A program made the translations under genes and the position numbers. Source: Chamaesiphon sp. 341R_metabat_111 (GTDB lineage: Bacteria > Cyanobacteriota > Cyanobacteriia > Cyanobacteriales > Chamaesiphonaceae). From it: 52,062 bases of DNA. Shown here piece after piece: positions 15,373 to 19,211 of this stretch. Under the pieces are notes generated by a model. The model saw nothing but the letters and a program-made list of their open reading frames with translations. It did no database searches and was not told where the DNA came from. The stretch lies in contig JANXVE010000117.1 of assembly GCA_025351825.1 (NCBI GenBank), positions 1 to 52,062 of the forward strand. The letters run 5' to 3'. Positions within the stretch are counted from its first letter, which is position 1, and each line of letters begins with the position of its first letter.

Positions 15373-16605
15373 ATGGTTAGAGAACTTAGCCGAGTTCATC
15401 AGGGATCTGGATCCAGCGAGGAGATTTCGCCCCAGACACAGCAGCAGTTAGACTTCCCCGCCAGCGCACCTACCGCCAATCCCGTCTTCTTCAGAACATA
15501 CAGTCGCTTCACCGCTACCGGACGGGAAACATGGCAAGATGTTTGTACTCGCACCCTTGCAGGACTAGTTAAACTCGGTAAATTAACCGACGCAGAAGCT
15601 GACGTAATCGATCGAATGCAGCGACAAGTCAAGGCAATGCCTTCAGGACGCTGGCTGTGGGTTGGTGGCAGCCAATGGCTAGAGCAACCGCAAAATTTTT
15701 CGGGTGCGTACAATTGCACGAGTACCAATGTCTGTGACTGGGCGGCGTTTGCCCTGATGATGGATTTGGCAATGATGGGCTGTGGTACGGGCGGGATTCT
15801 CGAACCCGATCTGATTGGTAATTTACCTGCAATTAGGAATAAGTTAACCGTTACAACTATTAGCGAAATTGGTAAAGTTCCGATCGCAATTCGTCAGCAA
15901 TTAAGCACGGTTGAAATCGCTGGCAATCATGCCACTATTCGCGTTGGCGATAGTCGTCAAGGTTGGGTTAATTCCTACAAGATCTTATTAGAATTATCCA
16001 CTGACGAAAGGTTTACTGATGAAGTCCAAGTCAGCATCGATCTCAGCAATGTCCGTCCGGCTGGCGAACCGCTCAAAGGTTTTGGTGGTGTTGCTAATCC
16101 AGTGCGGTTGCTAGAGCTATATGGTCGTTGTGCCAATATCTTAAATAAAGCAATTGGCAGACAATTAAACTCAGTTGAATGTTGTTTATTAATCGATGAA
16201 GCTGCGGTCACGATTGTAGCAGGCAACATACGTCGTAGTGCCGGTATGAGACAATTTAATTCAGATGATACATTGGGGGCGACTGCCAAGGATAATCTGT
16301 GGCAGCAAGACGAAAATGGAAGCTGGAGAATCGACCCAGAACGTGATGCGCTGCGGATGAGTAATCACACTCGTGTGTTCCACAAAAAACCTACTTTAGA
16401 AGAGTGTGTTGCCGCTGTTCAGAAGCAATACTACTCAGGTGAAGGTGCAATTCAATGGGCTGGTGAAGCTGTTGCAAGGTCTAATGCCGATCTGTTAGAT
16501 ACACCAGCAAAGAAAAAGCAGTTCATCGATCTTTATGAACAGTCCCAAGAGCTAGCAAAAGGATATCTGCGAGAGCTGCTAATTGCACAAAAAAGTCATG
16601 GGTAA
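15373..16605 (+). CDS. nrdJ: Adenosylcobalamin-dependent ribonucleotide reductase, N-terminal segment
   Basis: This 410-codon frame encodes the N-terminal part of class II ribonucleoside-triphosphate reductase, which makes deoxyribonucleotides with a cobalamin-derived radical. Visible signatures: FSGAYNCTSTNV (first redox cysteine, near residue 114), DLAMMGCGTGGILEP, NSVECCLLIDEAAVTIVAGNIRRSAGMRQF, and EGAIQWAGEAVARSNADLLDTP. Homologues continue for about 30 more residues to the NPCGE active site. Here the frame instead stops at TAA 16603-16605 after LRELLIAQKSHG, where a hairpin-rich block begins. The rest of the enzyme is encoded from 16782. Either the block is removed or bypassed, or the enzyme is made as two chains. 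Confidence 0.93.
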   Translation: MVRELSRVHQGSGSSEEISPQTQQQLDFPASAPTANPVFFRTYSRFTATGRETWQDVCTRTLAGLVKLGKLTDAEADVIDRMQRQVKAMPSGRWLWVGGSQWLEQPQNFSGAYNCTSTNVCDWAAFALMMDLAMMGCGTGGILEPDLIGNLPAIRNKLTVTTISEIGKVPIAIRQQLSTVEIAGNHATIRVGDSRQGWVNSYKILLELSTDERFTDEVQVSIDLSNVRPAGEPLKGFGGVANPVRLLELYGRCANILNKAIGRQLNSVECCLLIDEAAVTIVAGNIRRSAGMRQFNSDDTLGATAKDNLWQQDENGSWRIDPERDALRMSNHTRVFHKKPTLEECVAAVQKQYYSGEGAIQWAGEAVARSNADLLDTPAKKKQFIDLYEQSQELAKGYLRELLIAQKSHG

Positions 16606-16781
16606 AGGATTAGCGTAAAATACGCTGAATAATTTAGTAACAATCTTGAAAAAATACACAAATACTAATCTTGTTTATGTTAAGCTATTTGGCTAGCAGT
16701 ATGTTTCAGCTAGCCAAATGTTTTTAAATAATTGGCTAGCTACATATGTAGACTAGTCAATTATTTGATATGGCAAGGTAG
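16606..16781 (+). other. Hairpin-rich block interrupting nrdJ
   Basis: A 176-bp AT-rich noncoding insert in the variable linker before the NPCGE site. Three hairpins are visible: AGCGTA-AAA-TACGCT (16612-16626); an 11-bp perfect stem ATTTGGCTAGC (16687-16697) with GCTAGCCAAAT (16709-16719), followed by GTTTTTAAAT like a terminator; and a 14-bp stem AAATAATTGGCTAG (16726-16739) with CTAGTCAATTATTT (16753-16766). The latter two share TTGGCTAGC. Stops occur in all frames. It does not show a group I or group II intron core. The stretch ends TAG immediately followed by ATG at 16782 with AAGG just upstream, so internal initiation is possible. Confidence 0.75.
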
Positions 16782-16883
16782 ATGACATTTACTATAAGTA
16801 ATGAAACTAAAAATATTACTAACCAAGGCATCGAACTCGAACTAGAGCATCGAATGTCTAGGTTTGGACTAAATCCGTGTGGT
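16782..16883 (+). CDS. nrdJ: nrdJ mini-exon up to the active-site Cys-Gly
   Basis: This 34-codon segment restores the reductase sequence: after a low-identity lead (from ATG 16782) it reads GIELELEHRMSRFGLNPCG, the strongly conserved run before the catalytic centre. The Cys of NPCG corresponds to the thiyl-radical cysteine (Cys408 in the Lactobacillus leichmannii enzyme). The frame matches segment 17169-19211 once the 285-nt intron is removed. Without splicing, translation would end two codons later (AGA TAA). Its own start is either ATG 16782 or a join to the upstream segment; the two upstream frames differ, so the missing block would have to be 2 modulo 3 in length. Confidence 0.85.
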
Positions 16884-17168
16884 AGATAACTTTGCCTCAC
16901 GTTAAAAACTCCGTAAAATCGGTGAAAGCTGGGAAATGGTTATTATCACTTAGTTGTTAATAATCTGCCAATACCGAGGTAACTAGAGAAACTAACAAGT
17001 CTCTAACACCGTAGAGCGTAGAGGGTGAAACTGATGTAAATCAGAATATAAACCTCCAAGAGTGCGGAGCACTTAACAACTTAAATTAAGTGAAAATGTA
17101 CGCCGAACTACAGATAATTTAGAATCTGTAGAACCAGAGGATAAAAAGCCTTTGGGATAACAAAATTG
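16884..17168 (+). other. Group I self-splicing intron in nrdJ (IA-like)
   Basis: A 285-nt intron without a reading frame. The exon ends in T (16883) and the intron in G (17168), as group I chemistry requires. Pairings visible by eye: P1, exon CGTGTGGT (16876-16883) with guide GCCTCACG (16894-16901), one mismatch and a terminal U-G; P3 CTCCG (16909-16913)/CGGAG (17065-17069); P4 TCGGT (16919-16923)/ACCGA (16973-16977); P6a TAGAGA (16984-16989)/TCTCTA (17000-17005); P7 GCGTA (17016-17020)/TACGC (17099-17103); P7.1/P7.2 GAGG...CCTC and CTGAT/ATCAG (about 17021-17055); P8 CACTTAA (17070-17076)/TTAAGTG (17086-17092); P9 CTACAGAT (17108-17115)/ATCTGTAG (17124-17131). Extra P7.1/7.2 stems point to subgroup IA. 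Excision joins NPCG to EILGTNFHC in frame. Confidence 0.93.
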
Positions 17169-19211
17169 GAAATTCTCGGTACTAATTTTCACTGCGTCAG
17201 TGGTGATACACTGCTAATTACTCGTGACGGTTTATCTAAAATTGAAGATGTAACTAGTCAAGAAATTGAGATTTGGAATGGTAAAAGGTGGAGTAAAGTA
17301 ACCCCTTTTCAAACTAATACCAATCAAAAACTTTATCGTGTCCAATTTGGCGACGGTACATATCTAGATGCAACTGAATATCATCGCTTCTTCGTCAAAG
17401 ATCGTTTTGGCAAAGAATATCAGGAAGTCTTAACCAAAGACTTGATGGATGCTAGTCGCTATCAGCTTCATACGGAACCATTCCAAATTCAGTATGAAGG
17501 TGGTTCTGATATTGATTTAAGTTACGCTTATACCTTGGGTGTAGCTGTCGGTGATGGCACTGTTGACAAGAAGAATCGCGCCAAGATTCGACTGTATGAG
17601 GGCAAGTTAAATCTAGTTGTTGCTGGTCACAAATCACCAGAACGTCACTATGATTATTTGCCTGCTTTTACTGATGTTACTGAGTTAGATTTCTCCGCAG
17701 AGTTTCTCAAAGCACTGAAAACTAGTCCTGAAGCGTTAGATGTTATTGCAGGTTGGAATCGTCAAGCAATTCTGCACTTTATTGCGGGACTGGCTGACAC
17801 TGATGGTTCTAATACTCAGAGTAATGGGATTCGGATCTATATCTCCGATCGATCTCGTGCATACCGTTGTCAATTGCTATTGGCTAAATGTGGTGTTCGT
17901 TGTTCTCTGAACCTGATGTCTCGCAAAGGTGCAGTGACTAATTATGGAGTCAGAAGCCAAGATCTCTACTATCTCCAAATCACTAACTGTGCTGAAATTC
18001 CTTGTCAACGGTTAGACGTTAGCAAAAGTACTGAGCCAACAATTAAGGGGAAATGGCAAGTAATTCGCGGTGTTGAAGAACTCCCTGGATTGCATGATAC
18101 GTTCTGTTTCAATGAGCCAGAATTCCATAAAGGAGTATTTGGAAACACCTTAGCGGGTAACTGCAACCTTGCGGAAATTCATTTGAATCAGCTCGATCCA
18201 GACAACCATCAAGAACAGAAAGATGCTTTCACAGCTAGTGCCCTAGCCGTTGCAGCATTACTCAATCACAAATTCCAGGAACCCCGCTATCAGTATAGTC
18301 GTGAACTAGATCCGATCGTAGGTGTATCCTTCACTGGTTTGTTTGACTTCTTTGTCCATGCCTTTGGGGCTGAATGGCTGCAATGGTGGGAAAAAGGTCG
18401 TCCAGCGACGGCAGCGGGAATCATGTACAAGCAGAAAGAGCATGAGTATCTGAACACTTGGCGCAAAGTGGTTGAAGATACTGTGTGGGAATATTGCGAT
18501 CGACATGGCATCAAACGTCCTAATCGTTGCACTACCGTTCAGCCATCGGGTACTAAATCGCTGCTGACTGGTGCCTCTCCTGGCTGGCACGCACCCAAAG
18601 CGCAACGTTTTATCCGCCGGATCACTTTCCGCAAGGATGACCCTGTAGCCCTGGCTTGTATCGACTATGGCTATAGCGTGATTCCATCCCAGTCTGATAA
18701 GGATGAAAATGGTAATCTGCTCAATGATGCCTACGATCCACGCTGTACAGAGTGGTTGATTGAGATTCCGGTAGCGGTGTCCTGGGCGGATATTCCAGGT
18801 GCAGACTCGATCGAGATCGCTCAATTTAGCGCACTGTCCCAGATGGATTTCTATATGGGTGTCCAGCAGCACTATGTCCGTCACAATACCAGTGCAACGA
18901 TCGAATTGCGCGAGCATGAGGTTGATGAACTGGGTAAGCGGATTTTTGAAGCAATTCGGGATGATGAAGGGTATATTTCAGCCGCACTATTAGCGCGGTT
19001 TGACGATCATCAGACGTTCCCTCGCTTGCCATTTGAACCGATCGATAAAGCTACTTTTGACGAGATGATGATTGGTGTCACCACCCGTCGCCAGACAGCC
19101 GAATTCCACACTGCTTTGAGTCGATATGACATTGGTAGTGCCACGGAGGAAATCGGCCCTGCTGGGTGCGATTCTGATAAGTGTTTACTGCCAGAAACAA
19201 AGCCAAACTAG
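17169..19211 (+). CDS. nrdJ: Ribonucleotide reductase C-terminal segment with embedded intein
   Basis: This segment begins with Glu of the active-site NPCGE (E410 equivalent), gives EILGTNFH, then an intein, then resumes with CNLAEIHLNQLDP and runs to the C-terminus. Reductase signatures after the intein: EPRYQYSRELDPIVGVSFTG, CTTVQPSGTKSLLTGASPGWH (phosphate-binding), NTSATIELRE, and the C-terminal GPAGCDSDKC, whose two cysteines five apart re-reduce the active-site disulphide. All catalytic residues appear intact across the segments, so this is likely functional if splicing occurs. A terminator follows at 19266. Confidence 0.94.
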   Translation, partial: EILGTNFHCVSGDTLLITRDGLSKIEDVTSQEIEIWNGKRWSKVTPFQTNTNQKLYRVQFGDGTYLDATEYHRFFVKDRFGKEYQEVLTKDLMDASRYQLHTEPFQIQYEGGSDIDLSYAYTLGVAVGDGTVDKKNRAKIRLYEGKLNLVVAGHKSPERHYDYLPAFTDVTELDFSAEFLKALKTSPEALDVIAGWNRQAILHFIAGLADTDGSNTQSNGIRIYISDRSRAYRCQLLLAKCGVRCSLNLMSRKGAVTNYGVRSQDLYYLQITNCAEIPCQRLDVSKSTEPTIKGKWQVIRGVEELPGLHDTFCFNEPEFHKGVFGNTLAGNCNLAEIHLNQLDPDNHQEQKDAFTASALAVAALLNHKFQEPRYQYSRELDPIVGVSFTGLFDFFVHAFGAEWLQWWEKGRPATAAGIMYKQKEHEYLNTWRKVVEDTVWEYCDRHGIKRPNRCTTVQPSGTKSLLTGASPGWHAPKAQRFIRRITFRKDDPVALACIDYGYSVIPSQSDKDENGNLLNDAYDPRCTEWLIEIPVAVSWADIPGADSIEIAQFSALSQMDFYMGVQQHYVRHNTSATIELREHEVDELGKRIFEAIRDDEGYISAALLARFDDHQTFPRLPFEPIDKATFDEMMIGVTTRRQTAEFHTALSRYDIGSATEEIGPAGCDSDKCLLPETKPN
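17193..18161 (+). other. LAGLIDADG intein in NrdJ (323 residues)
   Basis: The protein insert starts with Cys (CVSGDTLLITRDG, block A) and ends ...FGNTLAGN before the extein Cys of CNLAEIHL, so removal regenerates NFHCNLAEIHL. Block B is visible as DATEYHRFFV (T-x-x-H type). A homing endonuclease of the dodecapeptide type is suggested by LGVAVGDGTV (block C) and FIAGLADTDGS (block E). The C-terminal block contains DTFCFNEPEFHKGVFGN. The penultimate residue is Gly rather than the usual His; some active inteins share this. The insertion cysteine is the redox Cys419 equivalent. Confidence 0.93.

Follow-up and report, generated by a model that had tools for sequence, protein, structure and literature searches.

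The stretch of Chamaesiphon DNA analyzed here (52,062 nucleotides (nt), contig JANXVE010000117.1, hereafter the window) carries a group I intron without an open reading frame (ORF) that interrupts a ribonucleotide reductase (RNR) gene, which is itself split in two. The intron occupies positions 16884-17168 (285 nt) of the forward strand, on which all features described below are also encoded. We hold with considerable confidence the overall interpretation that the intron is spliced out of the split gene, that the two halves of the enzyme are assembled, and that intron and split have spread together by homing-like repair. The gene encodes an adenosylcobalamin-dependent class II RNR of the RTPR type (match to TIGR02505), 91-95% identical to the RNR of named Chamaesiphon relatives, and resides in a genome of 4.06 Mb (G000, contig C8) with a completeness of 99.6%. 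Profile searches of this genome recovered no second RTPR, no PF02867 match and no class III RNR (NRDD), and the gene is apparently the sole RNR of a free-living bacterium.

The identity of the intron was established comparatively. R1, a covariance model built from 15 introns of genera other than Chamaesiphon, recognized the window intron with 235.9 bits (E 7.5e-68, with E-values taken from a short calibration) and produced zero matches in intronless Chamaesiphon genes. In the alignment of R1 introns, 39 of 60 base pairs showed changes on both sides, a number reached by none of 500 shuffles, and shifting the pairing partner by 1-3 columns reduced pairing from 95% to 30-48%. The folding energy of the intron was also low (z = -4.0). 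The original prediction, made from the sequence alone, of a complete ORF-less group I intron with exactly these borders was thus confirmed. The check it had proposed, a search with the Rfam group I intron model, formally failed (RF00028 scored 15.0 and 13.3 bits, where the gathering score is 50), and Rfam scans at the gathering threshold and up to an E-value of 10 gave no useful intron match. Since the same model misses every relative tested, with cyanobacterial and phage members of the R1 family overlooked in all loci tested, the failure lies with the model and not with the intron. RF00028 does find a phage intron (L084) at the same RNR site with 80 bits. An intron family that is supported by covariation and invisible to the Rfam model implies that such introns are probably under-counted.

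The upstream exon ends with GGT (16881-16883) and the downstream exon begins with GAA at 17169; joining the two restores the in-frame sequence LNPCG|EILGTNFH. The insertion separates the codons for Gly and Glu in the catalytic N-P-C-G-E loop; by L. leichmannii numbering (1L1L) these residues are G409 and E410, in the loop bearing C408, the radical cysteine in this enzyme family. The exon strand of helix P1 (16876-16883, CGTGTGGT), whose last base is U, pairs with the internal guide sequence (16894-16901, GCCTCACG), with one U.U mismatch and a U.G pair (U16883.G16894) at the 5' splice site. This pair and G17168 as the last base of the intron are found in all relatives, bearing out the U at the exon end and the final G that had been read originally. 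The exon sequence CCGTGTGGT is identical in all of the R1-type intron genes compared (24/24), whereas of 29 intronless genes whose Gly-Glu is uninterrupted only two (L050 and L054) have it. A separate case is Oscillatoria sp. PCC 10802, in which an unrelated insert of 245 nt (L028, 4732-4976) occupies the same RNR site and gives no match to R1. There the exon is different (CTTGCGGT; GCGGT) and the guide matches it (GCCGC), such that exon and guide have changed together; this insert is probably another group I intron.

All helices of the group I core are present and covary, including the P3-P8 and P4-P6 domains, P7 and the guanosine-binding pair. The 5' strand of P3 (16909-16914) pairs with 17064-17069, with all six pairs covarying, and that of P4 (16919-16923) pairs with 16973-16977, with 100% pairing and two pairs that covary. 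P6 (16978-16980/17008-17010) and P6a (16984-16989/17000-17005), which together span 16978-17010, are 99% paired, with six covarying pairs. The 5' strand of P7 (17014-17020), with its bulged A at 17015, pairs with 17099-17104, and G17016-C17103 constitutes the guanosine-binding pair. P7 is paired in all 40 introns compared; the G-C beside the bulged A is invariant in these 40, while the pair across the bulge is G-C in the window and C-G in 24 others. P8 (17070-17076/17086-17092, within 17070-17092) also covaries, although the covariation alignment is partly shifted there, and P9 (17108-17115/17124-17131) with P9.1 (17134-17140/17149-17155) closes the structure over 17108-17155 with 99% pairing and seven pairs changed on both sides. 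Between the P7 5' strand and the P3 3' strand lie the extra stems that characterize subgroup IA, here P7.1 (17021-17024/17053-17056), all five pairs of which covary, around an enclosed hairpin (17031-17035/17040-17044), the two spanning 17021-17056. Every pairing listed in the original prediction (P1, P3, P4, P6a, P7, P7.1/7.2, P8 and P9) was therefore recovered. Its subgroup IA, argued from P7.1/P7.2, is a reasonable assignment given stems in this position. In the window these stems are nested, unlike the side-by-side P7.1/P7.2 of IA2; some relatives (L093, L095 and L101) have room for a second hairpin.

An in-frame TAA (16887-16889) is the second codon of the intron. In 41 of 42 introns, codon 2 or 3 is the first in-frame stop (TAA or TGA), while the remaining two frames stay open longer. 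A stop at this position would halt ribosomes ahead of the intron core. These features are consistent with a splicing pathway in which the guide sequence would pair with the last bases of the 5' exon and an exogenous guanosine bound at P7 would attack after U16883. The freed exon would then attack after G17168, joining GGT to GAA and restoring the N-P-C-G-E loop, while the stop two codons into the intron would keep translating ribosomes off the ribozyme core.

Absent from the original picture of the locus was the division of the RNR gene into two ORFs directly upstream of the intron. The first gene, nrdJ-N (15373-16605, 410 amino acids), ends with a TAA at 16603-16605 and matches positions 17-353 of the RTPR model TIGR02505 (E 6e-95). 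The second, nrdJ-C (16782-19211), starts with an ATG at 16782, is interrupted by both the intron and an intein, matches RTPR positions 387-724 (E 1e-113), and would yield a mature product of about 391 amino acids by count. Each half has its own start and stop signals, and together they span the RTPR model. In the predicted structure of an unsplit homologue, a loop joining helices 380-387 and 393-400 contains the split point, and the local pLDDT there is about 85; the AlphaFold model is poor overall (pLDDT 54), and only its local helix-loop-helix at 365-400 is usable. Three Chamaesiphon, represented by the window, G004 and the cultured isolate Chamaesiphon polymorphus CCALA 037 (G003), have both the split and the intron, and three others (G002, G006 and G007) have an unsplit gene without intron. 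Both halves retain 87-95% protein identity between carriers. Since no other RNR turned up in this 99.6% complete genome, we presume the split enzyme to be functional; N-half and C-half would be separate polypeptides, and the C-half would have to lose the intron at the RNA level and the intein at the protein level before the halves assemble. As a side observation, the N-half carries a further insertion of about 1.17 kb after residue 288 in L023, L021 (G004) and L024 (G003), with an intein-like stretch in L023; the window lacks it.

A fragmented gene with stops invites the reading that the RNR is a decaying pseudogene whose intron no longer splices. We consider this the least probable of the alternatives, given that no RNR of any class was found to replace it in this nearly complete genome, that the halves are as conserved between carriers as just described, and that the intron core is fully paired in all three. 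A second alternative concerns the untranslated gap between the two genes (16606-16781), which could be a further intron or could be bypassed during translation, so that a single full-length RNR chain would be made. All three species have a strongly folded gap (z -5.06 in the window), with hairpins at 16687-16697/16709-16719 and 16726-16739/16753-16766 in the window, and the first of these keeps all 11 pairs between the window and G004, two of them with both sides changed, in a comparison of two sequences only. However, gap sequence is poorly conserved and its length varies (176, 210 and 136 nt in the three carriers), no group I or II core was seen, and an Rfam scan of the gap returned no family. 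Furthermore, precisely at the nrdJ-C ATG, conservation climbs from about 50% to 95%; this ATG is in frame with the exon and has an in-frame stop just upstream, and nrdJ-N terminates at the same codon in the three species with different stops (TAA, TAG and TGA-TAG). A single continuous chain consequently appears unlikely to us. In G003 the gap holds an unrelated perfect hairpin of 22 bp. The gap was also considered as a repeat or transposon remnant, which was rejected because it is not repeated elsewhere in the genus, and as a promoter or terminator, signals for which were no more frequent than in shuffled sequences.

Phylogenetic analysis of the gene in segments revealed a mosaic history. For codons 1-288 together with the C-half, G003 grouped with the intronless G006 (100/100) and G004 with the intronless G002 (94/99), and forcing the three carriers together cost 304 log-likelihood units (p 2e-111). 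In the 366 nt that end near the split, the three carriers formed a clade (98/98) and the grouping of G003 with G006 was rejected (p 1e-11). In sliding windows this mosaic tract lay immediately upstream of the intron site and gave way to an abrupt return on the downstream side. The upstream exon unites the carriers and the remainder of the gene does not, so split and intron were transferred jointly. This pattern suggests that the two crossed from one Chamaesiphon species to another as a unit, in the manner of homing with co-conversion of the neighboring exons. Such behavior is established for introns of this kind (PMC2988022), and the mosaic supports the earlier proposal of acquisition by homing at the RNR gene. 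In such a process, repair would carry the intron and the adjacent split between species following cleavage by a nuclease. Alternatively, ordinary homologous recombination without a nuclease may have moved the block, or may have restored intronless alleles. A tract this short, a few hundred bases, would also be compatible with transformation, and an intron-family nuclease was not found in the nine Chamaesiphon genomes; on the other side, the tract is centered on the intron site, co-conversion is the known behavior of these introns, and relatives keep a nuclease-like ORF. Recombination of this kind is a serious contender, although less probable than not. At even odds we place the more specific proposition that a mobile intron dragged the gene fission along, with the split hitch-hiking in a co-converted upstream exon, leaving an apparently sole RNR that would depend on two-chain assembly and on both RNA and protein splicing.

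The intron family is widespread. Relatives with 66-92% DNA identity occur in other cyanobacteria, and the R1 family was present in 40 of 196 sampled genomes of the order. When the 29 best-scoring loci were checked by pattern, 28 shared the NPCG exon and site and the remaining one had the same exon end; the window intron shares this site and the guide sequence. R1 also matched introns in isolated phages with 119-209 bits, including the RecD-like helicase gene of Bacillus phage vB_BsuS_PJN02 (209 bits), Enterocloster phage CB457P1 (134 bits) and the tape measure gene of Staphylococcus phage 6ec (119 bits); gut phages gave 194-199 bits. These homologues agree with the original view of a phage-like type distinct from the introns of tRNA-Leu. 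Among IMG/VR contigs, L078 encodes a class II RNR with an intron at the same site (244 bits), and L076/L079 carry an R1 intron in a dimeric-type RNR (160 bits). A terminase search on L078 found nothing, and its viral status rests on IMG/VR. R1 introns were not found in the cyanophage RNRs of Cr-LKS4, P60 and My-WqHQDG, nor in two IMG/VR RNRs. The sequence record is that of a phage-type family in which transfer may have run in either direction. Five further viral contigs (L080, L081, L082, L083 and L085) combine an RNR-like NPCG exon and a near-identical guide with very different introns (17-35 bits), which suggests that guide and site are common to several intron lineages.

Certain family members contain a putative nuclease. 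The introns of L029 (3818-4976) and L042 (3821-4976) enclose a full nuclease-like ORF of about 330 amino acids that starts in P8 and ends in P9.1; the L090 intron has the same length and ORF start, and L056 retains a remnant, the C-terminal part. This ORF has weak matches to T7 endonuclease I (PD-(D/E)xK fold) and NUMOD3 and possibly represents an undescribed homing endonuclease family, no relatives of which were found in the viral contigs searched. The window intron has no endonuclease of its own, as originally stated, and it retains in frame, as read from its sequence, the matching ORF tail VEPEDKKPLG*. Retention of this tail is expected because the same stretch forms P9/P9.1. The ancestors of the window intron probably encoded a nuclease of their own.

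The intein of nrdJ-C (17193-18161, LAGLIDADG type, 323 amino acids by count) starts 24 nt downstream of the intron, before the Cys of NFH|CNL (RTPR C419), and matches TIGR01445 (E 3e-6) and PF14528 (E 1.5e-6). Its proximity and its LAGLIDADG domain had led to the idea that its nuclease might mobilize the intron as well. This idea found no support and now seems very improbable, as the C419 intein occurs in 4 of 25 intron-bearing and 10 of 37 intronless genes (counts that include L112), G003 carries intron and split but no such intein, the mosaic tract extends upstream and not over the intein side, and related introns bear their own nuclease-like ORF. An intein at C408 was seen in none of the 25 carriers and in 8 of the 37 intronless genes, and thus never together with the intron, although species are not independent in this count.

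Several observations weigh against the combined scenario of splicing, two-chain assembly and joint spread. RF00028 scored the intron well below its cut-off, and P10 and P9.0 were not identified in the window intron. The structured gap may not mark a gene boundary at all, no driver of transfer was seen in the nine Chamaesiphon genomes, plain homologous recombination could produce a similar tract, and most genomes compared are metagenome assemblies. Should the scenario hold, intron-borne fission would provide a concrete and testable route to multi-subunit enzymes. The mosaic pattern suggests how the fission of an essential gene can be propagated by a selfish intron.

A group I intron has been described in the RIR gene of Nostoc punctiforme PCC 73102 (Meng, Zhang and Liu 2007, J Bacteriol 189:2150, as cited in PMC12702839, PMC3984707 and PMC1995217). 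As far as the citing papers allow comparison, family and site are very likely the same, and the window intron very likely belongs to this RIR-gene family known since 2007. Judging from the title of that paper, the Nostoc intron contains an insertion sequence element; the window intron, in contrast, is ORF-less, lies in a split gene and has an intein 24 nt away. The phage RNR introns (L078, L076/L079) share the NPCG|E site and a near-identical guide with it, whereas the phage introns at large (PJN02, 6ec, CB457P1 and IMG/VR, 119-244 bits with R1) reside in other hosts and genes. Non-coding inserts between halves of a replication gene also have precedent in IC-UTS, which splits DNA polymerase gene 43 in Aeromonas phage 44RR (PMC2988022); this resembles the window gap but concerns a phage and another gene, and the portion of that source consulted draws no link to an intron. 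Split RNRs are known from NrdA of Aeromonas phage Aeh1, divided by mobE (PMC2988022, PMC3653736), nrdJ of Thermus phage phiYS40 (PMC3653736), and the class II NrdJa/NrdJb of P. aeruginosa (PMC4520616). Like the enzyme predicted for the window, all three consist of two chains, and those of Aeh1 and P. aeruginosa were shown to be functional. A 2015 statement held the proteobacterial NrdJab to be the only split RNR known outside viruses (PMC4520616), and in the open-access literature we found no report of an RNR split linked to an intron. What appears new here, as read from the sequence, is a split RNR in a cyanobacterium that appears linked to an intron, and a cut right before the radical-bearing loop with intron and intein within 24 nt of each other is an unusual arrangement. 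The P. aeruginosa split removes a C-terminal chain of 229 residues from another class II type (PMC4520616), whereas in the window the cut immediately precedes the thiyl-radical loop of a cyanobacterial enzyme of the RTPR type and appears to travel with the intron.
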